Below are positions 4,877 to 50,902 of a DNA stretch of 64,000 nucleotides, piece after piece. Position 1 is the stretch's first letter. Every line of letters begins with the position of its first letter. The position numbers and the translations under genes are program-made. The notes under the pieces are model-generated. The model searched no databases. It was not told where the DNA came from and worked only from the letters and a program-made list of their open reading frames with translations. The stretch is taken from assembly GCA_009917695.1 (NCBI GenBank), contig JAACJG010000010.1:1-64000 (forward strand). The letters are read 5' to 3'. This DNA comes from Candidatus Rifleibacterium amylolyticum. GTDB taxonomy: Bacteria > Muiribacteriota > Ozemobacteria > Ozemobacterales > Ozemobacteraceae.

Positions 4877-7816
4877 ATGACCAGGAATAGAGAGTTTAAT
4901 CTGCGTTTTTCGATCAGCCTGGTTTTTGCCATTGTCATTTTTTTGCCTTTGTTTTTTATCAGCGCCGATCTTGGCAATATTTCCGTGCGACTCTGGCAGC
5001 AGCAACTCGCAACCGCACAACAGGATCTCAAGGAAGAACTCGCAGATTTTCGAAACAGCCTGATTCCACGCCAGTTTATCGAGAATCTGATCAAGCGGGC
5101 AGAGAATCGTCTGGGGCTCGTTTCGACAACCATGCATCATCCGGTGTTTCCGCATAATCAGGAAGCCGGCATCTTTACGGTGGCGACCATAGGTCAGTTG
5201 CGCGAGTTTTATCGAAATGAAGCAGATATACAGCCTCTGGTGCTGGTAACTTTCAATACCGATTATTCAGACGTCTGGATCTGGTTCAACCAGAATTACG
5301 CTGAGATTCGCAACTTGTCGGCTTATGATCACAAACGTTTCGAGACCCTGGTGCCGTTCATGGTGGCTGATACCGCTACTTTCAGCACGGTAATTGCCAA
5401 CAACCACAAGGCTCGCGCCGCTCTTGAGAACTTCAGACGTGAACTTCAGTTGACAGGCAAGCGCGACAGCACCTATCACAAGTTTTTTTACGACTATGTC
5501 GGTGATCTCAGCTATCGGCCGCCACACTACGGCATAGTCTATGAAATGGCGACAAATCGCCTGGAAAGCCGGCGCTTTTTTGTCTACAGCATGCCGGTAA
5601 AAGCCGGAGAACTAGTTTATGGGGGGTATTTTGTCATTTTTGCCAGCCGTGATGTCACGCCGGACAAGATTCTTAAATTGGCGGCAAAACCGACACGGCC
5701 GCGAACAAAGAGATATTTCTCTGCTTCTGCAAAGTCTCCCGGTCACATCAGTCACGCTTCACTTTCGTTACAACAGCCATTTCCCAATGAGTTTTCTGCA
5801 TACAGCAATCTTGCCGGTTACCGGAAGAAGTTACCACAGGCAATTGGAGTCGAGTTGTCGATCGCTGAAATGCAACAGGATCGCGCAGCAAGACAGAACT
5901 ATCTTGCTTTCAGCTGCCGCTTTATCATTATCGTTACTCTGGCACTGGTGGTTTATTTTCTGCTTTTTGGTTTCCCCACCTCTTTTCGCCTGCGTCTGCG
6001 CATGCTGGCTATTCTTGTGATAGCAGTCTGTCTGCCAATGGCGGTCTTGGGTTACTTTTGTCTAAGTCTGTTCGACAGCTTTCAGAATCTGGCTGGTCAT
6101 GAACTGCGTGCTGAAGCCACGAGTTCCATGTATCGCATCATCAGCTACTATTATGACCAGAAACTGCAGCAGAATCTTGAGATTCTAAAGACGAAGCAAC
6201 GCATGCTCGAACATGTAACCAGGCCAGCTGATGAGCTCGACCAGATGAATTCGCACAAGATAGTGACACCCGAAAACTATCTTGAACTGTTCCTGTTTCG
6301 AGATGACGGTATGACACGCACATTCAGAAGTCGCCATCCGACCAGCACCAATTCGCGGCGCATCGACTGTTATCTGGCGGTCAGATATCTCGATAATCTT
6401 GGCGTACTCGACCGCAGCATTTCGGCTAATCGTAAGTATCTTGAACATGGTGACTATGCGGCGGGGTTCATGTATTCATATTATCTTACTTATTCTGAGC
6501 ATCAGATGATGCATCGTGAATGTGTCGAAACCCGTGAATGGAAAAAAGCCGACGAACTTTCGCGCATGGCGTATATGTTGTTGCCCGATACCAGTATTCC
6601 TGATGCTCCTCTGCGCGCCATCGGCAAGACAACAATTCACACTTCGAATCTGACATTGATCAGGCCGTATCTGTTTGCGCCCGAGGTTTATTCGCAACGA
6701 ACCGCGTGGCAGAAGCATGATTTTCTGATCGGTCAGCGCCGGCTTGACGATACGATTCTGCGCTGGTGGCCTGATTATATCAACTCTTCATCGGAACTCA
6801 AGCATCAGTTAGACCTCGCAGCGGGCAGTCGCAGCGGAGGATCTCGCCTGATTCAGACTGGCCGGGAATTTCGTTTCGTCAATCGCCGGTACCTCGATGG
6901 CGAAAGCATGGTGTTTGCCGGCATTTCGACGGCCGCGCCAGATCTCAGACTGGAGCTGCTTTTCTGGGTTTTTCCTTTTGTGCTGCTGGTTCTAGTGCTC
7001 TTGTGTGTGTTTTTGTTCGCAGACCTGCTGGCGGCACTGTTCATCAAACCGGTATCTGGCTTTCAGAAGGCAACAGCTCAAATTACCGGAGGTAACTATC
7101 AGGTCAACGTGCAGATGCCTGATTCAGACGAGTTTTCAAAGTTGGCAAGCTCGTTCAATCGCATGGCAAATGGGCTGGTGCAGCGCGAAAAAATGCGGCG
7201 GTTTGTTTCTGAAAATCTGTTTGAACGTATCGGGCTGAGTGAGGGCGAAAGCACCAGAACCAGTGAGGTTACCCTGCTGGCCAGTGATATCAGAGGTTTT
7301 ACCACGCTCAGCGAGAAGCACGAACCACAGCAGATAGTCAGTCTGCTCAACGACTACTTCACCGAGATGGAAACCGCTATCGAAGAGTCTGGTGGCTTTA
7401 TCGAACGTTTCATCGGCGATGCCGTCGTTGCGGTGTTTTATCACAACGAAACTGGCCGTGCCGAAAATCGTGCTCTGAAGGCGGCTGTTTCGATGCGGGC
7501 CCGTCTGGTTGCGCTCAATCAGCGACGTGCTGTTGCCGGCCTTTTCGTAGTTGACAATGGAATCGGAATTGCCAGCGGCGAGGCTGTTTCTGGCGTTGCC
7601 GGCAGTTCAGAGGGGCGTCAGATCTTTTCTGTCCTGGGCGAAGTTACCAGGGTTGCCGAAAAACTTGAGAGCGCGAGTCGGCACGTGCCCTCGCACATTC
7701 TTATCTGCCCGAAAACAGCGTCGGCCCTCGCGAATACCCAGGGACTGACCGATGTCACTGATTTGTGTGGCATCACTGCTTTTACCCTGATGGATGGCAG
7801 GAGCACTGATGGCTGA
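4877..7816 (+). CDS. Membrane class III cyclase, metal-binding (C1-like) subunit A1
   Basis: A 979-residue protein. It has TM1 at about 14-32, a large extracytoplasmic region, TM2 at about 351-370, TM3 at about 376-398, a second extracytoplasmic region, TM4 at about 693-715, HAMP at about 717-775 and a class III nucleotidyl cyclase domain at about 785-965. In the cyclase domain both metal aspartates are present (D804 in SDIRGF, D848 in IGDAVV). The adenine-contacting Lys is Arg (R844), and the catalytic Asn/Arg of the NxxxR motif are R925 and K929 in GEVTRVAEK. Alone it should not cyclise ATP; it resembles the C1 half of mammalian adenylyl cyclase. The ribosome-binding site is weak (AAGGTG 11-12 bases upstream). 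It overlaps the next gene, which encodes the complementary subunit, so the two are translationally coupled. It is paralogous to the gene at 10949. Confidence 0.9.
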   Translation: MTRNREFNLRFSISLVFAIVIFLPLFFISADLGNISVRLWQQQLATAQQDLKEELADFRNSLIPRQFIENLIKRAENRLGLVSTTMHHPVFPHNQEAGIFTVATIGQLREFYRNEADIQPLVLVTFNTDYSDVWIWFNQNYAEIRNLSAYDHKRFETLVPFMVADTATFSTVIANNHKARAALENFRRELQLTGKRDSTYHKFFYDYVGDLSYRPPHYGIVYEMATNRLESRRFFVYSMPVKAGELVYGGYFVIFASRDVTPDKILKLAAKPTRPRTKRYFSASAKSPGHISHASLSLQQPFPNEFSAYSNLAGYRKKLPQAIGVELSIAEMQQDRAARQNYLAFSCRFIIIVTLALVVYFLLFGFPTSFRLRLRMLAILVIAVCLPMAVLGYFCLSLFDSFQNLAGHELRAEATSSMYRIISYYYDQKLQQNLEILKTKQRMLEHVTRPADELDQMNSHKIVTPENYLELFLFRDDGMTRTFRSRHPTSTNSRRIDCYLAVRYLDNLGVLDRSISANRKYLEHGDYAAGFMYSYYLTYSEHQMMHRECVETREWKKADELSRMAYMLLPDTSIPDAPLRAIGKTTIHTSNLTLIRPYLFAPEVYSQRTAWQKHDFLIGQRRLDDTILRWWPDYINSSSELKHQLDLAAGSRSGGSRLIQTGREFRFVNRRYLDGESMVFAGISTAAPDLRLELLFWVFPFVLLVLVLLCVFLFADLLAALFIKPVSGFQKATAQITGGNYQVNVQMPDSDEFSKLASSFNRMANGLVQREKMRRFVSENLFERIGLSEGESTRTSEVTLLASDIRGFTTLSEKHEPQQIVSLLNDYFTEMETAIEESGGFIERFIGDAVVAVFYHNETGRAENRALKAAVSMRARLVALNQRRAVAGLFVVDNGIGIASGEAVSGVAGSSEGRQIFSVLGEVTRVAEKLESASRHVPSHILICPKTASALANTQGLTDVTDLCGITAFTLMDGRSTDG

Positions 7817-10724
7817 AAACCGTGGACAGACAACAATCAATATTGAGCGGCGGATCAGCGCTTCGATAATGCTTGCAATCTGGCTGGCTGTATTCGTTTT
7901 GCCGGTAGCTCTGCTGCAGCTGAGTCTGGATTATCTGTTCAAACTGACGCGACAGGCCAATATGCGTGCAGTTACCGTCAGAATGACCAACGAAATGAAC
8001 CGTTTTCGCAACGACCTTGAAATAGAAAGTTATTTACAGCGGACATGCGAAGAATTTTTTCTGGCTTCGGCTTCGCGGCAGATAGAAAATCCTCTTGCAC
8101 TGGCGGCCTGTTTGCGCACAAAAACCGGTATTTCGGCAGCCGGGGTGATGACCCACACGGCTGATACGCAGACCGTCGATTTCTGGTTCAGCGAGGAACT
8201 CAATGCTCTGGCCAACATGTCGCGCACTCTTGGTCGGCGCTGGTTCGTTTCGGTTAACGAACAGCAGCTTTACCATTTTTACAGCACAGCCGCCAAGGCG
8301 GCAGTCGATGCGATTTTTCGCTTCAGCAACCCTGTTAAGGCGAAAAAAGACGCCGATCTGTTTTTCAGACGCATGTTCTCTCTTATCGCTGAAATCCCGG
8401 TGGTGCCAGGCCGTGTCAGCCGATCGCTTTCGGCAAAACTTGGCGGCCCGGTCTTTTTTTATTACCATCCCTTCCGCGAAATGCGTGCGGGCTTTACCTA
8501 TATAGACGGCGGTTGCCTGCTGATCATACGTGGCCGTGATATTCCCTGGCATCAGGCTGCCCGAGCCGCTGCAAACCGTGGCGCTCCCGGTCTGCAGCGC
8601 AACTTTTCACGATTCTCGCAATCGCTATGGGAACAGCAGACTGCTGTGCAGACGCCGATAACTCGCTTTTTTGAAACTGAACAGGGCTATCATCTGCAGT
8701 CAACCATGTCGCGCGGCAGTATGATCGACTTTGTTCAGGACGGCACCTTGGTGCCGGCTCGGCTGCAGGAGTTTGCCAGGACTATGCCACTTCTTCAGGT
8801 CTCTGTGTCCGAATCACAGTTACAACATCCACTTTTCCAGTATCGCAGCAGTATCAGTTTTATCTGCCGCCTCTTTTTACTGGCTGGCACCATGCTGTTG
8901 ATGAACCTGTATCTGTTCGGCTTCGATTTTAAAGCCGGGATAACCAGTAAAGTTGTTGCCGGCACCGCATTTATTCTGGTTCTGCCCTTTATATTGCTGG
9001 CTTCTGGTTTTATCAGCTGGAATCAGATCAACCAGGTGAGCGGGCGTTACCGTCTCGAGTTGCAGCAGCACCAGTTGTTCACCGATTTCACCGAGGGATT
9101 GGCTGATTATATGCTCGATCTACAGCGCTCAACCTGCGATCTTGCCCAAGAAATCGAGGAAAACCTGGACTGTGGCCAGGATGAAAAACTGCGCGCCATC
9201 TTTGCCCGCCATCTCAGGCAGAATCCGGTTACCGCCGAACTCAGGCTCGACCGCAAGTTTTCCGAGGGGCTGTACATAAGTTCGCCTTTCCTGCCAGACA
9301 GCATAAACAAAGGTGAAGAATCGAGCATGCGGCTTTTTGCTGCGACGATAATGCATGGATTCGACGATGCCGGCGTGCTCAGTAATGTGAGTTCCACCGG
9401 TGAAGAAGAGAGCTTTACAAGCATGAATGCCAGTTTTATCAACAAGGTGGTAAACCGGTGTGGTGGAGTTTACAAGTTTGCAGCTTTCGGCAGCGACAAG
9501 CGATTTTCGTCGGTATATTTCAATTTTCCTGGAAAAAACAGTATAAGCGGCATTCTTACAGCAGTTTTCGACCGCGACACACTGCTGGCTAATTTTGTCC
9601 GTAAGCACATAATGGGTGAAACCGCTATGCGTCAACGCTTTTTCATCATGCGTGAAGATTCAGGACTTCCCCGCTTTTATGATCTTGCCGATAACCGTGA
9701 AGTTTCAGATGCGCGCTTGCTCGAACAACTCAAACTTGCTTCGATTTCTGGTCATAACCTCTACGAAACACCAGCAGACGGCTTGACTCAGATTTTTTCG
9801 ATGATCGACATGTCTTTGTTCATGATGGTCCAGGGAAAAGGTGTGGTTGGTGAACGAGTAAAGGCTGGCTATCTGCTGCTTTTACCGCTTTACGGTCTTT
9901 TGTTGATGCTGCTGATTCTGCTGGTTTTCAAACTCATCTACCTGCGGCCGATCGAAGAATTCATAAGGGTAACCGAGTCTGTGGCGGCCGGTGACTACCA
10001 GCAGCGAGTCGATCTGAACGGAGCTGACGAGTTTGGTGAACTCAAGGTGGCATTTGACGAAATGGTTGCCGGGCTCGAGCAACGTCGATGCCTTTCTCAC
10101 TTTCTGTCGAGTGAAGCCATGCGGGCGGTCGAAGACGATTCAGACGAAAGCATGGCGCCGGGTGGCGTGCGCATCGAGGCCAGCATTGCCTTTGTGAAGC
10201 TGCACGATCTGCACGGGAAGGCCCGTACTCCAGAGTCCGTGTTCAAGGCTCTGGGCAGTTTTATCGACGCGGCCGACCGCTCTGCCATGCGGCATGGCGG
10301 TGTCGTCGATAAGCTTGTCGAAGATACTCTGATGCTGGTTTTTCGCAGCAGCGTTAACAGCAAAGACCATGCCTTTTCGTCTGTCAGCGCTATTTTAGAT
10401 CTGGTAGTAAGCATGCGCAAACGCGGCTTTCAGCTTCAAGGTGCTATTGCCAGTGGTTCTGTCGTTTCCGGCCGCATCGGTTCACGTCTCGGCAAACTCG
10501 ATTTCACCGTAATCGGTGACACAGTTAATCTGGCTGCCCGTCTCAAAGCCGAGGCGCACAGAACGACGCAGACCGGCATCATCGTCGCGCCCTCGACGAT
10601 TCGCCTGTTGCGCGGCCGCGCCCGCGTCAGCTTCATCGCCCGCACCGAAATAAAAGGCAAAAGCCGCGAATACCCGCTTTATGAGCTCACCGCCCTGCGT
10701 CAGCCATGCGCTTATTCGCCGTGA
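7809..10724 (+). CDS. Membrane class III cyclase, substrate-binding (C2-like) subunit B1
   Basis: A 971-residue protein with the same plan as its upstream neighbour: TM1 about 20-42, TM2 about 350-372, TM3 about 380-403, TM4 about 686-710, HAMP to about 765 and a cyclase domain at about 785-950. The first metal Asp is replaced by Lys (K797 in AFVKLH), and the GD motif reads ED (D839). The adenine Lys (K835), Thr (T900) and NxxxR (N907, R911 in VNLAAR) are intact. It therefore carries the residues that the A1 subunit lacks, and an active site would form only between the two. The start at 7809 was preferred over 7794 because AGGAG (7799-7803) lies 5 bases before it. It shares ATGGCTGA with the end of A1. 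Paralogue at 13893. Confidence 0.9.
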   Translation: MAENRGQTTINIERRISASIMLAIWLAVFVLPVALLQLSLDYLFKLTRQANMRAVTVRMTNEMNRFRNDLEIESYLQRTCEEFFLASASRQIENPLALAACLRTKTGISAAGVMTHTADTQTVDFWFSEELNALANMSRTLGRRWFVSVNEQQLYHFYSTAAKAAVDAIFRFSNPVKAKKDADLFFRRMFSLIAEIPVVPGRVSRSLSAKLGGPVFFYYHPFREMRAGFTYIDGGCLLIIRGRDIPWHQAARAAANRGAPGLQRNFSRFSQSLWEQQTAVQTPITRFFETEQGYHLQSTMSRGSMIDFVQDGTLVPARLQEFARTMPLLQVSVSESQLQHPLFQYRSSISFICRLFLLAGTMLLMNLYLFGFDFKAGITSKVVAGTAFILVLPFILLASGFISWNQINQVSGRYRLELQQHQLFTDFTEGLADYMLDLQRSTCDLAQEIEENLDCGQDEKLRAIFARHLRQNPVTAELRLDRKFSEGLYISSPFLPDSINKGEESSMRLFAATIMHGFDDAGVLSNVSSTGEEESFTSMNASFINKVVNRCGGVYKFAAFGSDKRFSSVYFNFPGKNSISGILTAVFDRDTLLANFVRKHIMGETAMRQRFFIMREDSGLPRFYDLADNREVSDARLLEQLKLASISGHNLYETPADGLTQIFSMIDMSLFMMVQGKGVVGERVKAGYLLLLPLYGLLLMLLILLVFKLIYLRPIEEFIRVTESVAAGDYQQRVDLNGADEFGELKVAFDEMVAGLEQRRCLSHFLSSEAMRAVEDDSDESMAPGGVRIEASIAFVKLHDLHGKARTPESVFKALGSFIDAADRSAMRHGGVVDKLVEDTLMLVFRSSVNSKDHAFSSVSAILDLVVSMRKRGFQLQGAIASGSVVSGRIGSRLGKLDFTVIGDTVNLAARLKAEAHRTTQTGIIVAPSTIRLLRGRARVSFIARTEIKGKSREYPLYELTALRQPCAYSP

Positions 10725-10730
10725 GCCCTC

Positions 10731-10868
10731 CATAAGCAGAGAGTCACAGATTGAATTCTTGAACTCTTATGTGACAGCCGGCCAGCCCTCTGTTAAGATT
10801 GAATGTGGGTTTTATCTGTCATTGCGACTGCGAGGCCAGGCCGAAGCAGGAAGCAATCTCATAGACAG
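10731..10868. repeat. Incomplete MITE-like repeats between the two cyclase pairs
   Basis: A mini-element of about 45 bases (ACAGATTGAATTCTTGAACTC...TGTGACAG) nearly identical to one at 48862-48900 is followed by the left end and half of the inner palindrome (CATTGCGACTGCGAGG...GAAGCAATCTC) of the larger repeat. The right half is missing. The remaining gap to 10948 is AT-rich (TAATCTTTTAATC) and probably contains the promoter of the second pair, but no clear -35/-10 pair stands out. Confidence 0.7.
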
Positions 10869-10948
10869 TCAGAATAATCTGCGATAATCTTTTAATCTGC
10901 GGATAACTCTTCAAAAACCATAAAATCAGTCGATAAAGGCTGATAAGA

Positions 10949-13900
10949 ATGACTACAGACGGTATCGGTGACAGAACTCTGCGACTGCTTATCGCAGTCA
11001 TTTTTGCCGTTCTCGTTTTTCTGCCGCTGCTTTTTGTCAGCCACGACCTGAATAATCTGGCAGCTCTTAGATACAATCAGGAACTTGAAGACGCCAGATT
11101 GAAACTGATCGACGAAGTCAACTCATGCAAAGATGAGCTGGTGCCGAGGCTTTACATCGAAAAGCTGGCCAAAGCCGGCGATGCCCATATCGGGCTGGTG
11201 TCTGAAACGGCCGACAAACCGGTTTTTCAGAAAAATGTCGATCCGCAGCTGATCACTGCCTCCACCAACGCTCAACTGCGCTCGTTTTACCAGCAACAAG
11301 CCGGTCTTGAACCGCTGATTCAGGTCGCTTTTGCCGTAGACTGCCGGCAGATCTGGTCGTGGTACAGCCCGCAAATGCCGGCATTGTCAGTTCAGGAACG
11401 CGAAATCATCGATTTAACTCTGGCGCATTACGCTGCCGACAAAGATCTGTGCGAACCGGTCATGCAAAGCGACCCGCTCGCTTTGAATAATTATTACAGA
11501 ACACTACAGATCGCTAAAAGAAACTATAGCGGCATTTCAACTGCCATGCAGGCCACTTTATACCAGCATTTTTCCGATTTGTCGTTTACGCAAAACAATC
11601 AGGGAGTCTGTTACGAAATGGCCGCGAATCGCTTTGGATCGCGCAATCTCTATTGCTATTACCGGGCGATCAAAGACGGCAAATCGTTTTATGGCGGATA
11701 TTTTGTAATTTTTGCCAGTGCCGGCCTCAAAAGCAGCGATATTCTCGAAGCCGCTAAAAAACCTTCCAGCAAAGACTTTCAGAGAAGCTTTTCCGCAGAA
11801 TCTTCCTTTCAACTGAACTGCATCGAACAGGACGGTGACAAGCTGCAACTGACAAGTCTGTTGCCGACTGAACTTGCCGGCTTTAACCGGGTCACCGGAA
11901 GTTTATCGGCATTGCCGCGCTATCTTACAGTTTCCCTTTCCATCCGTGATATTAATCAGGTTTATCGGAAAAGCCTTCTGCAGATCGCTGCTGTTGGCCG
12001 AATGACTGCCCTTGCCACCTTTCTGCTGATGACGTATTTCGTGCTGTTTGGATTTCCGGGAATTTTGCGCCTGCGCCTGCGCATGCTGACGGTAATAGCT
12101 CTTGTTCTGCTTATTCCTTACTTTCTGCTTGGCTATTTCTGTCTTGGACTGCTCAACAGCATACAAAACCTTGAAAAACATGAGCTCAAAGCTGAAGGCG
12201 AAAGTTTGATGTATCGCGTCAGGAATTACTTTATCGACCAGAAACTGCAGATGGTGCTGCACATGCTCAAGAGCAAGCACCGTCTGGCGCATGCCATGCA
12301 GCGCAGCGGTGATGAAATATTACAGATGAATGTGCACGATGTTCTTAACGCCGGTAGTTTTGCTGATATGACTTTCTTTCGAGATGATGGCACTGCAAGA
12401 AACTTTAGAGACCGTGACGTTGCCAATAGCAAAATCGCTATGATCGACAGCCTCCTGTCAGTAAAATATCTCGATAATCTTGGGGTGTTACAGCGGCAGG
12501 AACCCCGAGTTAAAAAGCTGCTCGAACAGGTAGTGCTGGCCGATGGCTTTATCTCTACACTCAAGCGTGATTACTACGAGCACTACATAATGCAGAACGA
12601 GGCGGTCGAGTCGGCTGATGTCAGAAAGGTCGACAACTTTGCCCGCATGATTTATTACCTGATTCCAGATGCTGCTCAGGCTGGTTTGCCGGTGCGCGCC
12701 ATGGCGATGACCAATATTTCGAATTCCGGTTATATGATGATAAATCCTCAGAACTTCACTCCCGAAATTTACTCTGAAACGACCGGCCGGGCTCGTCATC
12801 ATTTTGCTCTCGGCCAGCGTCGTATCGATGACACGGTTCTTCGCTGGTGGCCAGAATATCTCAGCCCTGATTCTCGGCTCAGGCAGTTGCTCGATAATGC
12901 TTTGACCCGCCGTTCGAATGGCTTCAGAGTGAGATCGCAGAACGGTCGCCTTGAATTCGAACACTATCGCTTCGAAAAGGATCAGCCGGTAGTAATCAGT
13001 GGAGTTTCTCAGAGTATGCCAGATCTCATGCTGCATCTTCTGGTCAGAAGCTTTCCTCTGCTGATGTTTGCGCTGGTTTTTCTCAGTCTGTTTCTGTTTG
13101 CCGATGTTCTTGCTGTTTTATTTATCGTTCCGGTCAAAGGATTTCAGCAGGCTGCCGCTCAGATCGGCCGTGGAAACCTGCAGACACGTGTCGAAATCGC
13201 CAGAACCGATGAGTTTGCATTACTTGCAGATTCTTTCAACCGTATGGGTACCGGGTTACAACAGCGCGAAAAAATTCGGCGCTTCGTTTCCGAAGATCTT
13301 TATCAGCAGCTTGGCCAGCGAACGGTCGCGGAAACCCCCAGGCTTGAACGTGTCAGCATGCTGGCCAGTGATATTCGAGGTTTCACCAGCCTCAGCGAAA
13401 AAACTGATCCACAGCTGGTCGTCAGTCTTCTCAACGATTATTTCACCGAGATGGAAGCGGCAATCACTTCATGTGGCGGCTTTGTCGAGCGCCTGGTCGG
13501 CGATGCAGTGGTTGCGGTCTTTTATCATGCCGAAGGGCGCAGCTGCGAACAGCAGGCGGTGCTGGCGGCCTGGCAGATGCGGGCCCGCCTGGCGCAGCTC
13601 AATGCCCGTCGTGCTGTCGCCGGCCTTTTTACGGTTGATAACGGAATAGGTATCGCCAGCGGTCGAGTGTTTGCCGGCATCGCCGGGGCAAAATCCGGTC
13701 GCCGCATTTATTCAGTAATTGGTGAGGTTGTGCAGCTTGCCGAAGAAATCGAGAGCCTGACCCGCACTGTTCCTTCACGTATTCTGTTGTGCTCTGCTAC
13801 TGCAGCCAGACTCGACGAACGCTACAAACTTTCCGAAGTCTCGGGGCCGACCGGCGTCAGAGCTTTCGCCCTGGTAGCCTGTGAGGTCGCCGATGTCTGA
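10949..13900 (+). CDS. Membrane class III cyclase, metal-binding (C1-like) subunit A2
   Basis: A 983-residue paralogue of the gene at 4877 with the same order: one N-terminal TM, extracytoplasmic region, two TMs around residues 350-405, second extracytoplasmic region, TM4 about 695-718, HAMP and C-terminal cyclase domain. Many segments are near-identical to A1, such as FGFPG and SLLNDYFTEMEA. Both metal aspartates are kept (D808, D852). The Lys position is Arg (R848), and NxxxR is Q929/E933 in GEVVQLAEE, so the catalytic Asn and Arg are gone by different substitutions than in A1. The loss is therefore constrained in A-type proteins, not a single accident. Start ATG follows a weak GGCTGATAAG leader. 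It overlaps the next gene by ATGTCTGA. Confidence 0.9.
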   Translation: MTTDGIGDRTLRLLIAVIFAVLVFLPLLFVSHDLNNLAALRYNQELEDARLKLIDEVNSCKDELVPRLYIEKLAKAGDAHIGLVSETADKPVFQKNVDPQLITASTNAQLRSFYQQQAGLEPLIQVAFAVDCRQIWSWYSPQMPALSVQEREIIDLTLAHYAADKDLCEPVMQSDPLALNNYYRTLQIAKRNYSGISTAMQATLYQHFSDLSFTQNNQGVCYEMAANRFGSRNLYCYYRAIKDGKSFYGGYFVIFASAGLKSSDILEAAKKPSSKDFQRSFSAESSFQLNCIEQDGDKLQLTSLLPTELAGFNRVTGSLSALPRYLTVSLSIRDINQVYRKSLLQIAAVGRMTALATFLLMTYFVLFGFPGILRLRLRMLTVIALVLLIPYFLLGYFCLGLLNSIQNLEKHELKAEGESLMYRVRNYFIDQKLQMVLHMLKSKHRLAHAMQRSGDEILQMNVHDVLNAGSFADMTFFRDDGTARNFRDRDVANSKIAMIDSLLSVKYLDNLGVLQRQEPRVKKLLEQVVLADGFISTLKRDYYEHYIMQNEAVESADVRKVDNFARMIYYLIPDAAQAGLPVRAMAMTNISNSGYMMINPQNFTPEIYSETTGRARHHFALGQRRIDDTVLRWWPEYLSPDSRLRQLLDNALTRRSNGFRVRSQNGRLEFEHYRFEKDQPVVISGVSQSMPDLMLHLLVRSFPLLMFALVFLSLFLFADVLAVLFIVPVKGFQQAAAQIGRGNLQTRVEIARTDEFALLADSFNRMGTGLQQREKIRRFVSEDLYQQLGQRTVAETPRLERVSMLASDIRGFTSLSEKTDPQLVVSLLNDYFTEMEAAITSCGGFVERLVGDAVVAVFYHAEGRSCEQQAVLAAWQMRARLAQLNARRAVAGLFTVDNGIGIASGRVFAGIAGAKSGRRIYSVIGEVVQLAEEIESLTRTVPSRILLCSATAARLDERYKLSEVSGPTGVRAFALVACEVADV

Positions 13901-16799
13901 ACGAAATATAACGATTCGGCGCGAGATCAGCGCTTTTGTGCTCTTTTCTGTCTGGATTATGGTATTCGTGTTGCCGGCATTTCTGGTGAATTTCAGTCTG
14001 CAATATCTTTTCGATATGACGCAGTCTGCCAACCGGCGCGCATTCAGCAGCGCCATGACCAACGACATGGAAAGCTTCAAGAGCGATCTTGATACTGCCA
14101 GCTGCCTGCAGAAGCGAATCGAGAGCTGTTTTGGCAAACTCACAATCCCGCCTGATTTTGCCAGTCCACAGGATTTTGCCGAGCTGCTGGCCAGAGAAAG
14201 TGGTATAAGACCGGTTGGAATCGTAGCGCATGGCACTGATACTGTAGATATATCTGTATATTTTGCCGAACGTTTCGCCGACAGATTTCGCAATCTTTCG
14301 CGTAATCTCATGCGTCGTTATCTGGTTACATTGAATCAGCAGTATCAGTATGCCTGTCACACAGATGAGAACGCTTCTCTGATCGAGGGTCTGTTTCGTT
14401 TTGTCGAACCGCAGAAGGCGAAAAAAGACTCTGATATGTTTCTGCGTCGGGTATTTGGCTTGATTACTGAAGCGGCAATTCTGCCCGGTCGTGTTTCCAG
14501 ATCGGTTTCTGCGGCATTTGCCGGCCCTCTTTATTTATATTACCAGCCATTTTTTTCAGACCAGTCCGGTATGCGCAGGATTAAGGGTGGTTTTCTGCTG
14601 ATCTTTTCCGGCGCTGATATTCCCTGGAATCTTGTGGCAGCAGATGCCATCGCTGCACCAACTTCAGGTTTGCAGAGAGCCCTTGCCATTTCCAGAACTT
14701 CATACTGGGAAATCAACAGCAACAATCACGACATAGTTACGCGCTTTCAAGAAGACGAAGAGGGTTTTCATCTCTTGTCCACCATCTCTCAGACAGCAAT
14801 TGTCGATCTGATACAGGGTGGCACTTTCATGACGAAAAACATTCGGCAGGTACTTCAGAAAATGCCTCTGTTAAAGGTTTCGGTGCCCTGGTCTGCTTTG
14901 CAGCATCCGCTATCGAGATGGTCTAAACATATCGTTTTTGGCTGCCGCATTTTTGCCATGCTTGGCGCGCTGTTTCTGCTGAATTTTTTCTTTTTTGGCG
15001 TTGAATTCAAAGCCGGCATAGCCAGCAAAGTCGTTACCGGAACTGCTTTTATTCTTCTTTTACCGGTTATTCTGCTGTTCGTGGGTTTTCTGACCTGGCA
15101 TCAATATGGCCGGATATATGCCTGGTACGCCGCCGAAATCCAGCAGCAGAGATTATTTGACGACTTCAATGAAAAGCTGGCTGCGTATCAGCAGGAACTG
15201 CAGCAGAAATCTTTTGACGTTGCCAGCTCGGTTGCAGAGCTTGTCGCAACTGGCAGATACGATGATGTCAGAGAGTGTCTCAGGCAACAACTGGATAGTT
15301 CACTGGCTTCTGAAATTGCTCTGGATCTGCCGGGTGGCCGGGCTGTCAAGGTTGAATCGACAAGCCGCCGAAGCGCGGCATTTGCCGAGGAAGATTCAAA
15401 CCGTCGACTGAGCAGTATCGCGGTTTTCAGTGCATTTAATGATAATGGAATTTTTACCAAAATCACTCATGATAAAAGCGAGCAGGATATCACTGCCATA
15501 GATTCGCGTTTTATTAACGATGTAATCAGCCGTTGGGGCAGATTTTATCAGCTGTTTCGCTTTCATACCGGCAGTCGCTTTTCTTCTATTTACCTGCATA
15601 AACCGGGTCGCAACGATCCGATGGCATTGCTCACCATTAAATACAGCGACGAGCATCTTCTGCGGGCTCTGGTCAGCCGCTATCTCCGCGAATCAGACCG
15701 CGCCCATGACGTTTACGCCCGCTATTACATAATTCGTGATGACGCCGGGGTAAAACGCTATTTTTCTCTTGCCGACAATAGCGAACTGACTGACCCGGAA
15801 ATGATTGGGCGATTCAATCTGGCGGCGGCTTCAGGCCAGTATTCAGTTCGTCAGAATAGCCGTGATCTGCTGCAGATTTTTGCCATGAGTGATTATCCGC
15901 TGATTCTGCTGACCCGCATCGATGCCGTTGCCGGGCAACACGGCAGTCTGTACATTGTCGCAGTTATCCTGCTTTACGCTATGCTGTTGCTGTTGTTCGT
16001 GTTTCTGGTTTTCATACTCATCTATCTGCGGCCTATTCGCGAATTCATCAGGGTAACCGAAAAGGTGGCGGCCGGCGATTATCAGTGCCAGGTCGATCTC
16101 GACCAGACCGACGAATTCGGCGATCTCAAGCAGACCTTCGATACCATGATTCATGGTCTCGAACAGCGGCGTCGCCTGACGCAGTTCGTTTCGAGCGAAG
16201 TTATCAAAGCAGTCGAATCAGATTCAGAAGAGAGCATGGCAGTCGGCGGTGAGCGTGTCGAGGCAACAGTTGCCTTCGTTCAACTCGCCATGCTGCAGCA
16301 TCTCAAAAGCGAAGCCTCGCCCGAAGAAATCTTCGCAACCCTTGGCGACTTTATCGCTGCTGCCGATATCGCAGCCAGCCAGCACGGTGGTGTTGTCGAC
16401 AAACTCGTCGAAGACACACTTATGCTGGTTTTCAGAGCTGACCCGGCCCGGTCCGAGCACGCTCTCGCCGCCAGTGCTGCCGTTCTCGATCTCGAAAGCC
16501 AGATGCGCGAACGCGGTTTACGCATCTGCGCCGGCATCGCCAGCGGTCAGGTCGTTTCCGGCCGCATTGGTTCACGGCTTGGTAAGCTTGACCTTACGGT
16601 TATCGGCGACCCGGTCAACCTCGCCGCCCGCCTCAAAGCTCAGGCTAAAAAAGCAGCCAATACAGGCATCATCATCGCACCCGGCGCCATTCGCATTCTA
16701 AAAGGCCGCGCCCGCGTCACTTTCATCGAGCGCACCGAACTCAAAGGCAAAAGCCGTGAATACCCACTCTACGAGCTCGTCGCCCTGCGCCCCGCCTGA
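13893..16799 (+). CDS. Membrane class III cyclase, substrate-binding (C2-like) subunit B2
   Basis: A 968-residue paralogue of the gene at 7809 with four TM segments, HAMP and a cyclase domain. The first metal Asp is Gln (Q797 in AFVQLA) and the second region reads VED (D841). The Lys (K837), Thr (T902) and NxxxR (N909, R913) are intact. It complements the A2 subunit exactly as B1 complements A1. ATG at 13893 was chosen over GTG at 13881 because TGAGG lies about 6 bases upstream and because it reproduces the 8-base start/stop overlap of the first pair. The gene ends 24 bases before a convergent Uma2 gene, with no obvious terminator between. Confidence 0.9.
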   Translation: MSERNITIRREISAFVLFSVWIMVFVLPAFLVNFSLQYLFDMTQSANRRAFSSAMTNDMESFKSDLDTASCLQKRIESCFGKLTIPPDFASPQDFAELLARESGIRPVGIVAHGTDTVDISVYFAERFADRFRNLSRNLMRRYLVTLNQQYQYACHTDENASLIEGLFRFVEPQKAKKDSDMFLRRVFGLITEAAILPGRVSRSVSAAFAGPLYLYYQPFFSDQSGMRRIKGGFLLIFSGADIPWNLVAADAIAAPTSGLQRALAISRTSYWEINSNNHDIVTRFQEDEEGFHLLSTISQTAIVDLIQGGTFMTKNIRQVLQKMPLLKVSVPWSALQHPLSRWSKHIVFGCRIFAMLGALFLLNFFFFGVEFKAGIASKVVTGTAFILLLPVILLFVGFLTWHQYGRIYAWYAAEIQQQRLFDDFNEKLAAYQQELQQKSFDVASSVAELVATGRYDDVRECLRQQLDSSLASEIALDLPGGRAVKVESTSRRSAAFAEEDSNRRLSSIAVFSAFNDNGIFTKITHDKSEQDITAIDSRFINDVISRWGRFYQLFRFHTGSRFSSIYLHKPGRNDPMALLTIKYSDEHLLRALVSRYLRESDRAHDVYARYYIIRDDAGVKRYFSLADNSELTDPEMIGRFNLAAASGQYSVRQNSRDLLQIFAMSDYPLILLTRIDAVAGQHGSLYIVAVILLYAMLLLLFVFLVFILIYLRPIREFIRVTEKVAAGDYQCQVDLDQTDEFGDLKQTFDTMIHGLEQRRRLTQFVSSEVIKAVESDSEESMAVGGERVEATVAFVQLAMLQHLKSEASPEEIFATLGDFIAAADIAASQHGGVVDKLVEDTLMLVFRADPARSEHALAASAAVLDLESQMRERGLRICAGIASGQVVSGRIGSRLGKLDLTVIGDPVNLAARLKAQAKKAANTGIIIAPGAIRILKGRARVTFIERTELKGKSREYPLYELVALRPA

Positions 16800-16823: not shown

Positions 16824-17450
16824 TCACCCATACTTCGGCGGTGGTGGTGATTTTACCCGTTTAACTTTTGGCAGGGGCGGAAACAGCCGGCGGCAGTCGA
16901 CGCTCAAGCCGGCAAACTGCGCGATCGCAATTTCTGCTGTGTCGTCATAAATCTCCTCGCGTTCGAAGCGGCCGTCTTTGCCGAGTTTGTTCACCCTGAT
17001 CAGGCGTTCGAGCGGGCTTATCAGCCAGAATTCCTTGACGCCGGCCTGCTCGTAGACCCGGCGCTTGATGATGTTGTCTTTCGACGAAGTTGATGGCGAA
17101 ATGATCTCGACCACCAGGTCCGGCGCGCCGACGATGCCGCGCTCTTCGATCTTCTTGGGGTCGCAGACGACCATGATATCAGGCTGTACTACTGTAAACA
17201 CTTCGTCTGATCTGCTGGCATTTTTTGCCAGCAGCACGTCTAGAGGTGCAACGAAAACTTCGCATGGCTTGTTATCAAAAAAATTAGACATCTGCCTGCT
17301 AAGTTCGGTCACAATTCTCTGATGTAAAACACCAGGCGAAGTCATATCGAACACTTCACCGTCGATTATCTCGTAACGATTGTCGTCATCCCAGGTCAGA
17401 TAGTCCGCATAAGAATAGCGCTGCTGCTTTTTTTTGGACGATCCCGCCAT
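16824..17450 (-). CDS. Uma2 family (DUF820) restriction-endonuclease-fold protein, copy 1
   Basis: A 208-residue PD-(D/E)XK-fold protein of the Uma2 family. The core is visible as PDLVVEIISPSTSSKD, a Lys about 19 residues after the Asp, and GVKEFWL. Its cellular role is not established; such genes occur in many copies in cyanobacteria and other phyla. The C-terminus is a basic, proline-rich tail ending in PPPPKYG, shared with the two other copies in this window. Start at 17450 was chosen because GGAGG lies 5-6 bases before it; the longer frame adds only MRAEVF. It is downstream of a RelE-like toxin pair on the same strand. Confidence 0.85.
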   Translation of the reverse strand: MAGSSKKKQQRYSYADYLTWDDDNRYEIIDGEVFDMTSPGVLHQRIVTELSRQMSNFFDNKPCEVFVAPLDVLLAKNASRSDEVFTVVQPDIMVVCDPKKIEERGIVGAPDLVVEIISPSTSSKDNIIKRRVYEQAGVKEFWLISPLERLIRVNKLGKDGRFEREEIYDDTAEIAIAQFAGLSVDCRRLFPPLPKVKRVKSPPPPKYG

Positions 17451-17525
17451 AAAAACCTCCGCCCGCATTTTCCCTATTATACAATGCCCCGCACAGAGAC
17501 ACCAAGCCGCAAAGAGGCCGCCCGT

Positions 17526-17840
17526 TCAGATCCCGTCTGTGCCATCGTGGGGGCCGAGCAAAACAAACTTTATGGTACTACCTGGCATTTTCTCGCAGTC
17601 AGAACATTTCACAATAGCATCGTCCCGCTTTTTCCGGCAGGCTTCGCAATACAGGTAGATGATTATGAAATTTCGCTTGACCGGGCATGAATAAAAACCC
17701 CGAAAATTGCCTTTCAGAGGTTCGCCTGTCGTCAAAGGGCTTGCGATTATCATATCAATTTTCTTTTTAACCAGCTTCTTTATCGAAGCATGCTTCTGCA
17801 AAGCCTTAACGAAAGCCGATTCAAACGTTACATTCATCAA
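17526..17840 (-). CDS. RelE/ParE-superfamily-like toxin with CxxC pairs
   Basis: A 104-residue protein with a RelE-like plan: N-terminal helix ALQKHASIKKLVKKKID, central LKGNFRGFYSCPV and IIIYLY strands, and the ending KFVLLGPHDG that many RelE/YafQ-like toxins share. Two CxxC motifs (CEAC, CSDC) form a probable metal knuckle in the C-terminal half, which is less usual. The gene overlaps the stop of its upstream partner by 4 bases, the normal antitoxin-toxin order. It is predicted to be a ribosome-dependent mRNA nuclease or similar; no catalytic assignment is possible by eye. Its 3' end is duplicated as a remnant at about 18.85 kb. Confidence 0.7.
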   Translation of the reverse strand: MMNVTFESAFVKALQKHASIKKLVKKKIDMIIASPLTTGEPLKGNFRGFYSCPVKRNFIIIYLYCEACRKKRDDAIVKCSDCEKMPGSTIKFVLLGPHDGTDGI

Positions 17841-18094
17841 TCACCAAAGACCTCTTCGTAACTGTGCCACCTGGCTTTGCCGTTTCTAAGCGTTGCCTGG
17901 GCATCCAGCATTGCCTTCTCGAATGCCGGATTACTGAGAATCTTTTCGACCCTGTCGCCTTCTGCCTGCCGCTTGAGTGCGAGCAGATACTGAGTAATCA
18001 TGTCGGCTACCGTAGTGCGGTTCTCGACAGCAAAAAGCCTGACAAAATCGGCTAGATCCTGGTCCAGGCTGATGTTTATTCGGGTTTTTGTCAT
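17837..18094 (-). CDS. Antitoxin with N-terminal ribbon-helix-helix
   Basis: An 85-residue protein beginning with TRINISLDQDLADFVRLFA and followed by a helix with TTVADMITQYL, a good ribbon-helix-helix DNA-binding pattern. The C-terminal part (LSNPAFEKAMLDAQ, then WHSYEEVFGD) is the likely toxin-binding tail. GGAAG lies about 6 bases upstream of the ATG. It is the first gene of a two-gene unit with the RelE-like toxin and probably represses it. Confidence 0.8.
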   Translation of the reverse strand: MTKTRINISLDQDLADFVRLFAVENRTTVADMITQYLLALKRQAEGDRVEKILSNPAFEKAMLDAQATLRNGKARWHSYEEVFGD

Positions 18095-18145
18095 AATATT
18101 CTTCCGTTCCCATTATACACACATCAGGAAATATTGTCTATAACC

Positions 18146-18772
18146 TCACCCATACTTCGGCGGTGGTGGCGATTTTACCCGTTTTACTTTCGGCAGGGGC
18201 GGAAACAGTCGGCGGCAGTCGATGCTCAAACCCGCAAACTGCGCGATCCCGATCTGTGCCGTGTCGTCATAAATGTCTTCACGCCCGAACAACCCGTCTT
18301 TACCGAGTTTGTAGACCCGAATGAGCCGGTCTGTCGGGTGCACCAGCCAGAATTCCTTGACGCCGGCCTGTTCGTAGATTCGGCGCTTGATAATATTGTC
18401 TTTCGATGAAGTTGACGGCGAGATGATCTCGACCACCAGATCGGGCGCGCCGACGATGCCGCGCTCTTCGATCTTTTTGGGATCGCAGACGACCATGATA
18501 TCGGGCTGAACCACCGTAAAAATTTCGTCATTCCTTTTTGCGCTTTTTGTCAGAATCACATCAAAAGGCGCGCATATTACCTCGCACGGTTTCCCATCGA
18601 AAAATATGGCCATTTGTGTTGCCAGTTCAAGGCTTATTTTTTGATGAGTAAACCCGGGAGAGTTCATATCAAACACTTCACCATCGATTATCTCGTAGCG
18701 AATGTCGTCGTCCCAGGTCAGATAGTCTGCATAAGAATAGCGTTGTTGCTTTCGTTTAACCGATCCCGCCAT
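18146..18772 (-). CDS. Uma2 family (DUF820) protein, copy 2
   Basis: A 208-residue paralogue of the copies at 16824 and 19661, with the same PDLVVEIISPSTSSKD core and PPPPKYG tail. It is the most diverged of the three, with differences in the N-terminal third and around residue 150 (LVHPTDRL in place of LISPLERL). GGAGG lies 6 bases before the ATG. It sits between the RelE-like module and the HEPN/MNT module. Conserved acidic and Lys residues of the PD-(D/E)XK fold are intact, so it need not be dead. Confidence 0.85.
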   Translation of the reverse strand: MAGSVKRKQQRYSYADYLTWDDDIRYEIIDGEVFDMNSPGFTHQKISLELATQMAIFFDGKPCEVICAPFDVILTKSAKRNDEIFTVVQPDIMVVCDPKKIEERGIVGAPDLVVEIISPSTSSKDNIIKRRIYEQAGVKEFWLVHPTDRLIRVYKLGKDGLFGREDIYDDTAQIGIAQFAGLSIDCRRLFPPLPKVKRVKSPPPPKYG

Positions 18773-18838
18773 ATAAACCTCCGCCCCGCATTTTCCCTAT
18801 TATACAATACCTCTCACAAAGTCACAAAGCCGCAAAGA

Positions 18839-18938
18839 GGCCGCCCGTTCAGATCCCGTCGGCGCCATCGTGGGTGCCGAGCAAAACAAATTTCAAGGTT
18901 TTATCCGGCGATGGTGGCGATTTTGCCCGTTTAACTTT
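18839..18938 (-). pseudogene. Remnants of a RelE-like toxin 3' end and a Uma2 3' end
   Basis: On the minus strand, 18898-18842 translates to LKFVLLGTHDGADGI followed by a stop, almost the same as the C-terminus of the toxin at 17526. Next to it, 18904-18938 matches the last codons of the Uma2 genes (GGTGGCGATTTTGCCCGTTTAACTTTT). No complete gene remains. The fragments show that Uma2 plus toxin units have recombined here. Confidence 0.7.
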
Positions 18939-19272
18939 TCAGTTCAGATATCGCTTTTTCGATATGTGACTTCAGGGCCGGCAGAGAATCTGCTATGGTT
19001 TGCCAGACAAGCTCATGCTGCACGCCAAAGTAAAAGTGAATGAGTTTATCCCGCATTCTGGCCATGGCTCGCCAGGGAACTTCGGGGTATTTCTGCTGAA
19101 CTTCTACAGGAACCATTTTGGCTGCTTCGCCAATGATTTCGAACTTGCGAATCACCGCGCTCGAGGTCTTGTCGTCAAGTTTGAACCCTTGCAGATCCAT
19201 GTTCTTAACGAATTCTTCAATGGCACGAATGGCGGCAAGAATATCCTCGAGGTATAGAACAAAATTTCTCAC
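18931..19272 (-). CDS. hepT: HEPN domain toxin, HepT-like (DUF86)
   Basis: A 113-residue all-helical HEPN protein with the RxxxxH motif in [11 protein letters not shown], the RNase-type active site of HepT toxins. It starts with GTG inside the stop of the upstream nucleotidyltransferase gene (GTGA overlap), the usual order for the HepT/MntA toxin-antitoxin pair, in which MntA AMPylates HepT at a tyrosine near the active site; Y in HFYFG is the candidate. Its stop lies in a remnant of a Uma2 gene. Confidence 0.9.
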
Positions 19273-19565
19273 AGCATGATTGCCTCTTGCAGAATTGTTT
19301 GCCGTAATTCCGTTCTGATGCCACTTTCTGGCACCAGGTCGATGTTGCGATGCAACTTGTCTTCTAAATAAAGTGTAAGCTCGGCCATATCGAAAAGGTT
19401 CGCAGATGGCAGAAAATCGACGAGAATGTCGATATCGCTGTCCGGGGTTGCTTCAGAGCGGGCGAAAGAACCGAAAACTCCTTTGAGATCAGCCTTGAAT
19501 CGCGCTTTAATTTCGGCTTTCAGGCTTGAAAGAATCCTGATGACCTCAGATACTTCCGGGCTCAT
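19269..19565 (-). CDS. mntA: Minimal nucleotidyltransferase antitoxin, MntA-like
   Basis: A 98-residue protein with the nucleotidyltransferase signature [20 protein letters not shown], in which GSx10DxD supplies the metal-binding acidic residues. It is the antitoxin partner of the overlapping HEPN gene. ATG at 19565 was chosen over a GTG six bases earlier because GGAG is at a better distance. Length is normal for the family. Confidence 0.9.
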
Positions 19566-19660
19566 AAACACATCTCCGCTTGCAAAGTTTCAACGAGAAC
19601 AGCATCGCGTTTTTCAATCTTTATTATATCGCATGTACAACAAACCGCGTCAAGAGAATC

Positions 19661-20287: not shown

Positions 20288-20321
20288 AAAAACCTCCGCC
20301 CGCATTTTCCCTATTATACAA

Positions 20322-29128: not shown

Positions 29129-29289
29129 ACTCAACCCCCTTCTCGCCCAACCAGCCTTAATATCGCAACAACCATGCCAGAAGCTGGCAGTGTTTTTAGC
29201 TACCTCTGACTAATTATACACTGTATCTGATATGGGTTGTAGTTAAATCTCGAAAACAACTTTTTACATTCAGAGCAAAATTTTTTGAC

Positions 29290-48859: not shown

Positions 48860-49045
48860 ATTCTCTCAGATTGAATTCTTGAACTCATGTGTGACAGAGG
48901 ACTAGTCCTCTGTCACATTTGAATGTGTGCTTAAAAACTGTCATTGCGAGGAGCGGAGCGACGAAGCAATCTCTATGACAATGGGATTGCTTCGCTCCGC
49001 TCGCAATGACAGATAATACCCAGATTCAATGTTGACAGACCACTA
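48860..49045. repeat. Two adjacent MITE-like elements, mini form plus copy 3
   Basis: A mini-element of about 45 bases (TCTCAGATTGAATTCTTGAACTC...GTGACAGAGGAC) abuts a full copy whose left end is GTCCTCTGTCACATTTGAAT and right end ATTCAATGTTGACAGACCAC. The junction is a perfect 26-bp palindrome centred on ACTAGT (48892-48917). The full copy is bordered by CTAGT on both sides, a TA duplication. The right CTAG supplies the stop codon of the cyclase gene at 49043. Confidence 0.85.
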
Positions 49046-50902
49046 GTCGGCTGGCTTTTCTTCGAGCATTTCCAGCAGTTCGTATACTTCCTGCGGGCGG
49101 CTTTTACCTTTCAGCACCAGCGGTTCGAGCTCGTTGAATTTGACGAGATGACCGATTTCGCGCCAGACAGCGTCAGAAAACAGTATCTGACCGGGAAGCG
49201 CCTTGCTTTCGAGCCTGGCAGCAGTGTTTACAGCATCGCCCAGCGCGGTGTATTCCTTGTGGTTGTCGGAACCGAGGTTGCCGACGAAGGCCTCGCCACT
49301 ATGAATGCCGATACCGATGTCGAATACCTGACCCCTGGCTTTCTGCCAGCTTTTTCGCAGATTTTTCAATTCTTCGCGCATTTCGCAGGCAGTCTTAACC
49401 GCGCGGAAAGCAGCGTCAGCCTGTGATATCGGTGCTCCGAAAAGAATCATGATCGCATCACCGATGAACTTGTCGATCGTGCCGCCATTGCGAAAGATTA
49501 TCTCGGTCATTTTGTTGAAATATTCGTTGAGCAGCTTGCTGATCTCCCAGGGATCCATGTGTTCAGACATATGGGTGAACCCTCTGATATCTGAAAAGAC
49601 GACAGTGATGACTTTCTTTTCACCCTGTGCGGTTTTTTCGTATTCATTGCGGGTGATGAGTTTGGCTACTTCTGGCGAAACATACTTCTGTAGTATGGCA
49701 AAGAGGTTCTGCTGCTCGATTCGGGCCTGTCGGTATTTGGCGAATGCCGACCACAGGTATATTGCGAGCAGGCTGGTTGCCAGAAGAAAATAATTGATCA
49801 GCAGCCCGGAAGAAAAAAACAGGTAAAAGGCCAAGAACAGGCATGACAAAAGAACCGTCAGCAGCAGAGCGAAACTGGCCAACGGGCTGATCATAGCAGT
49901 TATTGCAGCGAATGCGGCGTTGCCAAGCAACATGCCTGAAAATGCCAGGGTCGGAGAGGGTGCGCGGATGACTTTGTTGTTGAGAAGGTTTTCGATGACA
50001 TTGGCGAGAATGACGACGCCGTATTCCTGTTTGCGTTTTGGAAACAGACTGAAAGACAGAGCTGGAATATCCTGAAAATCACGGTATAGCGGATCAATTA
50101 CACCGACCAGAACGATTCTGTTTTCGATGAGCTTTTCATGGATCTTTCTTTGCGCCTCGCCCGCTTCGATGAATTCAGAAAAAGGAATGACATAAAAGTT
50201 ATTGATATCGCCTATGTAGTTTATGAAACTGTAGCCTTCATACAGCTTCAACTTTGTCGTCAGCCTGTTTTCAGGTCGCCGGTAAAAGGAAAGCTCGTTG
50301 CTTTCGCTGTTTAACTCCAGTTTCCCGAGTCTTTCCATTATTGCGAGGGGCAGCGAGTAGATCGTGTCATTGCCCAGTCTTTTGAAAGGCAGGTAGCGTC
50401 TGCGTATTGAGTCTGTGTCGTCTCTAATACCTCTGAAAATATTGACGTAGCCATGTGACAGCAGGTCATTGCCGATTTCTTTCCAGGGTTCGATATAGAT
50501 TTCCTGTTGGTCAGACCCGGTCGAGGCCTGAAACGTAGAGCTCATGACAATTGAACCGGGATAGGAAGCAAGACTGCCGATAAGAGCAGCATCGTCGTCG
50601 CTGCTGAGTCGTCGTTCGAAAATAACATCGAAAGCCAGAACCGCCGGTCGCAGATCGGCGGTTCTGTTGATGAGCTCAGCATAGACGCTTCGTGGAATGA
50701 CGCCGGAACGGCTGATGTCGTATTTGTTGAAAGAATCACTGTCGATGCCGATTATAACGACATCATCCGATCTGGCTGCGAAATTCTTCAGGTTGATCAG
50801 AATATCGTACGAATAATTCATCAGATAATTATTCGCACTTGAGAAGTAAAGCAGGCACAGCACAAAAAGCGACTGCAGGAGAGGATATAGAACTTTTCTC
50901 AC
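49043..50902 (-). CDS. CHASE2-domain class III adenylate/guanylate cyclase
   Basis: A 619-residue protein: N-terminal TM, extracytoplasmic CHASE2 sensor (about residues 40-310, DVVIIGIDSDSF, PAVLAFDVIF), three TM segments at about 315-390 and a cyclase domain at about 425-600. All catalytic positions are present: metal D438 (SDIRGF) and D482 (KFIGDAIM), Lys K478, and N559/R563 in VNTAAR, so it can form active homodimers. Product is probably cAMP (Lys/Thr pattern). It follows a FecR-like lipoprotein gene by 7 bases at the end of a prepilin operon. The stop TAG is provided by a MITE-like repeat. Confidence 0.92.
   Translation of the reverse strand: MRKVLYPLLQSLFVLCLLYFSSANNYLMNYSYDILINLKNFAARSDDVVIIGIDSDSFNKYDISRSGVIPRSVYAELINRTADLRPAVLAFDVIFERRLSSDDDAALIGSLASYPGSIVMSSTFQASTGSDQQEIYIEPWKEIGNDLLSHGYVNIFRGIRDDTDSIRRRYLPFKRLGNDTIYSLPLAIMERLGKLELNSESNELSFYRRPENRLTTKLKLYEGYSFINYIGDINNFYVIPFSEFIEAGEAQRKIHEKLIENRIVLVGVIDPLYRDFQDIPALSFSLFPKRKQEYGVVILANVIENLLNNKVIRAPSPTLAFSGMLLGNAAFAAITAMISPLASFALLLTVLLSCLFLAFYLFFSSGLLINYFLLATSLLAIYLWSAFAKYRQARIEQQNLFAILQKYVSPEVAKLITRNEYEKTAQGEKKVITVVFSDIRGFTHMSEHMDPWEISKLLNEYFNKMTEIIFRNGGTIDKFIGDAIMILFGAPISQADAAFRAVKTACEMREELKNLRKSWQKARGQVFDIGIGIHSGEAFVGNLGSDNHKEYTALGDAVNTAARLESKALPGQILFSDAVWREIGHLVKFNELEPLVLKGKSRPQEVYELLEMLEEKPAD

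Follow-up and report, generated by a model that had tools for sequence, protein, structure and literature searches.

The window, as the whole 64,000-nucleotide stretch analyzed here is called, carries two pairs of genes for receptor-like class III cyclases in which no single subunit has all the catalytic residues. Are these proteins degenerate, or do the two members of each pair, designated A and B, build one active site between them? The comparisons below favor the second answer. A and B very probably form an obligate heterodimeric, receptor-type adenylyl cyclase with one composite ATP site, the other site being dead. No biochemical data are available, and activity, 1:1 assembly in vivo, the use of ATP as the substrate, and signal integration are all inferred.

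Overlapping gene pairs and their catalytic residues

The first pair comprises the metal-binding (C1-like) subunit A1 (979 aa; 4877..7816, plus strand; assigned from the ORF, Pfam, and hydropathy) and the base/transition-state (C2-like) subunit B1 (976 aa; 7794..10724, plus strand), which starts at 7794 or at an internal ATG at 7809 (971 aa). A1 is laid out as four transmembrane (TM) segments, two large presumed extracytoplasmic regions, a HAMP domain (PF00672; residues 717-768, 7025..7180, from Pfam), and a class III cyclase domain (7250..7738); its TM helices, at approximately residues 11-29, 349-367, 377-395, and 694-712, were predicted from hydropathy only. The same 4TM-HAMP-cyclase layout was seen in B1, with the HAMP domain at residues 717-763 (9942..10082, from Pfam) and the cyclase domain at 10161..10664. 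The second pair, also on the plus strand, consists of A2 (983 aa, 43% identity to A1; 10949..13900; cyclase domain, 13337..13840) and B2 (972 aa from a GTG at 13881 or 968 aa from an ATG at 13893, 44% identity to B1; 13881..16799; cyclase domain, 16260..16757). All four cyclase domains were located by Pfam and residue reading on the plus strand. The start of each B gene lies within the 3' end of its A partner, giving an overlap of a few codons.

PF00211 and HAMP exceeded the Pfam cut-off in all four proteins, and hydropathy gave the same four TM segments and two loops of approximately 300 residues in each. The two catalytic domains of a pair are the products of separate genes and not parts of one polypeptide. 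With about four TM segments and a HAMP domain per protein, no six-TM block precedes the cyclase domain, as judged from hydropathy only. A Pfam search found no AAA or TPR domain in the window proteins, and their ectodomains matched no Pfam family, including dCache_1 (PF02743). Just downstream of the cyclase pairs, three genes of the Uma2 endonuclease family (PF05685) stand in a row (16824-20305, minus strand). A gene for a 1962-aa kelch-repeat protein (23246-29134, minus strand) lies near a prepilin-like gene (21337-21867).

The earlier note on this DNA had claimed that the A proteins keep both metal-binding Asp residues and have R/K or Q/E for the transition-state Asn and Arg, and that the B proteins have Lys or Gln for the first metal Asp and keep Lys, Thr, Asn, and Arg. 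Direct codon reading bore out both claims. A1 retains D804 (7286-7288) and D848 (7418-7420) and has R844, S918, R925, and K929 in place of Lys, Thr, Asn, and Arg, respectively. A2 retains D808 and D852, and the corresponding replacements are R848, S922, Q929, and E933. On the other hand, B1 (numbered from 7809) has K797 at the position of the first metal Asp (metal-Asp-1), with D839, K835, T900, N907, and R911 intact, and B2 (numbered from 13893) has Q797 there, with D841, K837, T902, N909, and R913 intact. Since D839 and D841 represent the second metal Asp (metal-Asp-2), the loss in B1 and B2 is limited to metal-Asp-1. The full set of two Asp, Lys, Thr/Asp, Asn, and Arg is obtained only when A and B are combined; the criterion of a C1-type half with both metal Asp residues and a C2-type half with Lys, Asn, and Arg is satisfied, for one site. 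A lone CHASE2-cyclase in the same window (49043..50902, minus strand; assigned from Pfam and residue reading) served as an internal control and was intact, as had been stated, with D, D, K, T, N, and R all present.

Class III domains are divergent, and B1 alone matched PF00211 with an E value of only 4e-8, from profile position 25. It might therefore be supposed that the apparent loss of residues is an alignment artefact. We regard this as almost certainly wrong, because two independent alignments, a MAFFT alignment of the domains and the HMM match columns, concur, and because metal-Asp-1 sits in a recognizable strand whose surroundings match among A, B, and complete enzymes, with substitution invariably at one and the same column.

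Complementary couples in the source genome and its relatives

A profile search of the window's own Candidatus Riflebacteria assembly (5.4 Mb) detected 61 PF00211 domains, 36 of which belong to 13 adjacent gene pairs (approximately 930-1020 aa per product) and five fused proteins (approximately 2000 aa; C1:333888-345907, C1:380459-386509, and C23:12750-24790 of G000). In each fused protein, a single chain contains about eight TM segments and two halves linked through HAMP, with cyclase domains that are unlike each other. All 13 pairs overlap or abut at the stop and start codons. When A-type was defined by retention of both metal Asp residues with loss of Asn and/or Arg, and B-type by retention of Lys, Thr, Asn, and Arg, every one of the 18 couples proved complementary, with one member of each type. 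Metal-Asp-1 is missing in 17 of the 18 B members, including C3_78390, which has a gap at that column; the exceptional B, C2_229595, keeps metal-Asp-1 and has Glu at metal-Asp-2. The order is A-B in ten pairs and in all five fusions, and B-A in three pairs. If 18 A and 18 B members were re-paired at random, all 18 couples would be complementary with a probability of 2^18/C(36,18), or approximately 3e-5, a value that ignores shared ancestry. Because of that ancestry the couples are not independent trials, and the case stands on long-term conservation rather than on the raw probability.

The six positions are all present in 23 of the remaining 25 domains; the other two are degenerate. The genome also encodes 19 cNMP-binding domains, which are candidate receptors, and one of them adjoins the C1_275524 pair. 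Two lone cyclase domains (C2:424405-426669 and C6:151854-152939 of G000) have lost most of the catalytic residues and have no adjacent partner. Several relatives in the same phylum have 50-63 class III cyclase domains each; up to 30 class III cyclases per strain have been mentioned in a review (PMC9552081).

In other genomes, 60 regions around unfused A-type matches were collected; they were chosen by the A member, and the partner was not preselected. The 60 clean further pairs consisted of 47 A-B, nine B-A, three A-B*, in which B keeps metal-Asp-1 and has Glu at metal-Asp-2 as in C2_229595, and one A with a B gapped at metal-Asp-1. Thus, 59 of the 60 were complementary, the last partner was unreadable at one position, and no pair was non-complementary. 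C2_229595 and its orthologues constitute one pair lineage with metal-Asp-1 kept in B. The named matches to the fused proteins came mostly from Candidatus Riflebacteria MAGs, and approximately 30 fused proteins from named genomes all have A first and B second. In one of the fused proteins (L061:13976-20137), Asn and Arg are still present in the A half, yet this half shows further A-type traits, among them Ser for Thr and the absence of a Lys-Gly loop. Contigs labelled Erysipelotrichia and Methylomirabilis (L065 and L069) bear typical Riflebacteria fused A-B cyclases; the contigs have probably been mislabelled or misbinned, unless the genes moved by transfer.

Both fused and paired forms were found throughout the window's family. 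Two further Riflebacteria families, f3 (L218, L221, and L240) and f6 (L245), contain complementary pairs as well, and many other matches in such families are complete single enzymes. The f6 pair (L245:1794-6144 of G028, minus strand; Pfam) carries dCache_1 sensors, and only in this distant pair was a dCache ligand-binding domain recognizable; a profile of ectodomain 2 did not match a dCache-bearing pair. The f6 pair is possibly a separate origin of the split cyclase, and it is the best lead toward a ligand. In family f7, sAC/ADCY10-like C1-C2-AAA-TPR proteins with complementary catalytic residues are encoded at L238:493-5142 and L239:3920-8212 (G029, minus strand), and L238 finds its best PDB match in human ADCY10 (E value, 9e-41). 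The top matches outside the window's family are complete and had pointed to a split confined to that family, a supposition refuted by the weaker matches, that is, the f3 and f6 pairs and the f7 tandems. Outside the phylum, the adjacent cyclases in L104 and L121 were both complete in each case, and in 247 genomes of one other phylum, with only two candidates per genome scored, all matches were to single HAMP-cyclases; given this limit on scoring, absence elsewhere is not shown.

The earlier note had named the alignment of homologous pairs as a check on its proposal. The complementary substitutions were conserved across the 13 pairs and five fusions of the source genome, the 60 further pairs, and the approximately 30 fused relatives.

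Active-site columns and modeling of the proposed A-B unit

The catalytic columns of 123 A, 120 B, and 54 complete domains were compared. Asp, Thr, and Asp are present in 100% of A, and Lys, Asn, and Arg in 100% of B. Columns outside the naming criteria are also split. Thr five residues past metal-Asp-1 is found in 123 of 123 A domains versus 6% of B, Glu nine residues past metal-Asp-1 in 100% versus 17%, and the adenine-pocket Thr in 21% versus 99%. The C-terminal Lys-Gly loop, which we take to be the equivalent of the triphosphate-binding Lys loop of mammalian C2, occurs in 3 of 123 A and 101 of 120 B domains. At metal-Asp-1, B has G (42), A (21), S (21), H (9), and other residues. The Lys site of A holds K in 86 domains (70%), Q in 16, and R in 15. 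The Arg that the earlier note reported at this site is therefore true of A1 and A2 but local to the window's pair type. Judged from these columns, the productive side is fixed and the opposite side drifts, and the retention of Lys in 70% of A, and of either Asn or Arg in 20 of 123, indicates that the dead site is unevenly degraded.

These data bear on two other explanations. In the first, A and B are degenerate pseudo-enzymes whose inactive homodimers act as a scaffold for signal binding or as a regulator of complete cyclases. Essential residues are indeed missing in each subunit alone, and complete cyclases are plentiful in the same genome. However, across a set of over 100 diverged sequences, one composite site is near-invariant and the other decays, and complementary halves would not be expected to persist in a dead pair, so that this explanation is very improbable. 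In the second, heterodimers form, but homodimers of A or B are usefully active and pairing modulates activity rather than creating it. Some A domains do have Lys with one of Asn and Arg, many B domains have metal-Asp-2, and fungal rhodopsin cyclases need heterodimers although their residues are present (PMC8815786). Nevertheless, Asn and Arg are both missing in 103 of 123 A domains, and 116 of 120 B domains lack metal-Asp-1, the other four lacking metal-Asp-2. We consider useful homodimer activity very unlikely.

An AlphaFold2 model was built for the last 1200 residues of a natural fused protein (L071) from a 31-row alignment (pLDDT, 79.9; pTM, 0.56). Its best PDB matches were human AC5 and AC9, with TM-scores on the query of 0.27-0.29 versus 0.14-0.17 for single cyclases, and the overall rmsd exceeded 30 Å. 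The scores suggest that the two cyclase domains of the model superpose together. As this docking is inferred from TM-scores, with such an rmsd and a pTM of only 0.56, the A-B arrangement is supported but not shown. A full-length model of A1 was poor in the sensor (pLDDT, 55), and the matches in a fold search with it were dominated by the cyclase domain. Because many relatives carry A and B as a single fused chain, a 1:1 A:B unit is hard to avoid.

The heterodimeric reading may be stated as follows. A and B would be translated from overlapping genes as two unlike halves of one receptor and would assemble 1:1 through their HAMP and cyclase regions, with only one productive ATP site, located at the interface of the dimer. 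To this site A would contribute the two metal-binding Asp residues and a triphosphate-binding loop; from B would come Lys and Thr for the adenine, Asn and Arg for the transition state, and the C-terminal Lys-Gly loop. The pseudo-symmetric counterpart of this site would be dead. ATP as the substrate is inferred from Lys and Thr in the adenine pocket. As each subunit has its own pair of predicted extracytoplasmic regions, cAMP output would be set by the state of both sensors. With HAMP-linked ectodomains on both halves, two inputs meeting at one site is the natural reading, and coincidence detection is plausible, its AND logic and ligands being untested. The single composite site that had been proposed from the window alone thus gains support from the complementary conservation, the additional split columns, the fusions, and the AC5/AC9-like model; activity only in the mixture remains an inference.

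Origin of the split form and its significance

In a tree built without the catalytic columns, complete, A, and B cyclases formed separate groups, with the fused A halves joining a subset of A and the fused B halves on a long branch. The AU test rejected neither a single A clade (p = 0.56) nor a single B clade including the fused halves (p = 0.35). Distance matrices of A and B were strongly correlated, both in the sensors (Mantel r = 0.86-0.90) and in the catalytic part (Mantel r = 0.82-0.84; p = 1e-4 for both), indicating that the pairs duplicated and diverged as units. The best PDB sequence matches of A1 were bacterial Cya2, CyaB, and photoactivated cyclases, with weak matches to mammalian AC5 and AC8, and those of B1 were photoactivated cyclases, Cya2, and CyaB. 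Since the closest sequences are bacterial cyclases, the mammalian-like division is probably convergent.

Eukaryotes are known to have heterodimeric class III cyclases with complementary sites, and tmAC is cited as such in PMC8815786. Like mammalian AC1-AC9 (class IIIa), the Riflebacteria enzymes have two unlike cyclase domains that are inferred to give one productive and one dead site, metal Asp residues from one half and Lys, Asn, and Arg from the other, and a membrane module before each cyclase domain, and their fused relatives share the TM-cyclase-TM-cyclase order. They differ in having four TM segments, large ectodomains, and HAMP instead of 6TM blocks, in being encoded by two separate genes in the window, in having Thr at the second adenine position, where the mammalian enzymes have Asp, and in being closest in sequence to CyaB/CyaC/Cya2-type domains of bacteria, for which reason the split looks independently evolved. 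Soluble guanylyl cyclase likewise combines homologous alpha and beta subunits from different genes into one working site, but it is a cytosolic, eukaryotic haem receptor that uses GTP. ADCY10 and its bacterial relatives, represented in Riflebacteria by L238 and L239, share the asymmetric C1-C2 couple but are cytosolic single C1-C2-AAA-TPR chains without TM sensors. The fungal RGC1/2-NeoR system also joins two membrane receptors with different inputs in one cyclase dimer (PMC8815786), whereas the catalytic residues of RGC1 and RGC2 are all reported to be present and the sensors are fungal light sensors. Rv1625c/Cya and other bacterial homodimers are alike in catalytic fold and chemistry but have one gene and two identical sites (PMC9552081).

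A review of the evolution of adenylyl cyclases, published in 2022, gave fused dimeric cyclases of class III as unknown in bacteria, assigned duplication and fusion to early eukaryotes, and raised the question of what advantage fusion brings (PMC9552081). A literature search, which did not cover most subscription journals, found no description of Riflebacteria cyclases or of the split receptor form. Since the f7 proteins indicate that asymmetric bacterial tandems are not confined to the membrane type, asymmetry itself is not new; the new element is the receptor-type form, two-gene or fused, together with its expansion. We lean, with some reserve, toward the broader view that Riflebacteria independently evolved mammalian-style pseudo-heterodimeric membrane adenylyl cyclases, as two-gene A+B pairs first and as eight-helix fusions later, and expanded them to approximately 18 per genome. 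On this view, each would combine two signals from outside the cell at one site, and its dead site could evolve into a regulatory pocket resembling the forskolin site.

Three forms coexist in one bacterial lineage: complete enzymes of the homodimeric type, heterodimers encoded by two genes, and pseudo-heterodimers made by fusion. With all three at hand, the question of why a cyclase becomes asymmetric can be put to the test, since natural parts can be swapped, split, and fused. In addition, the pairs suggest a general design for two-input receptors and offer new heterodimeric parts for sensor engineering.
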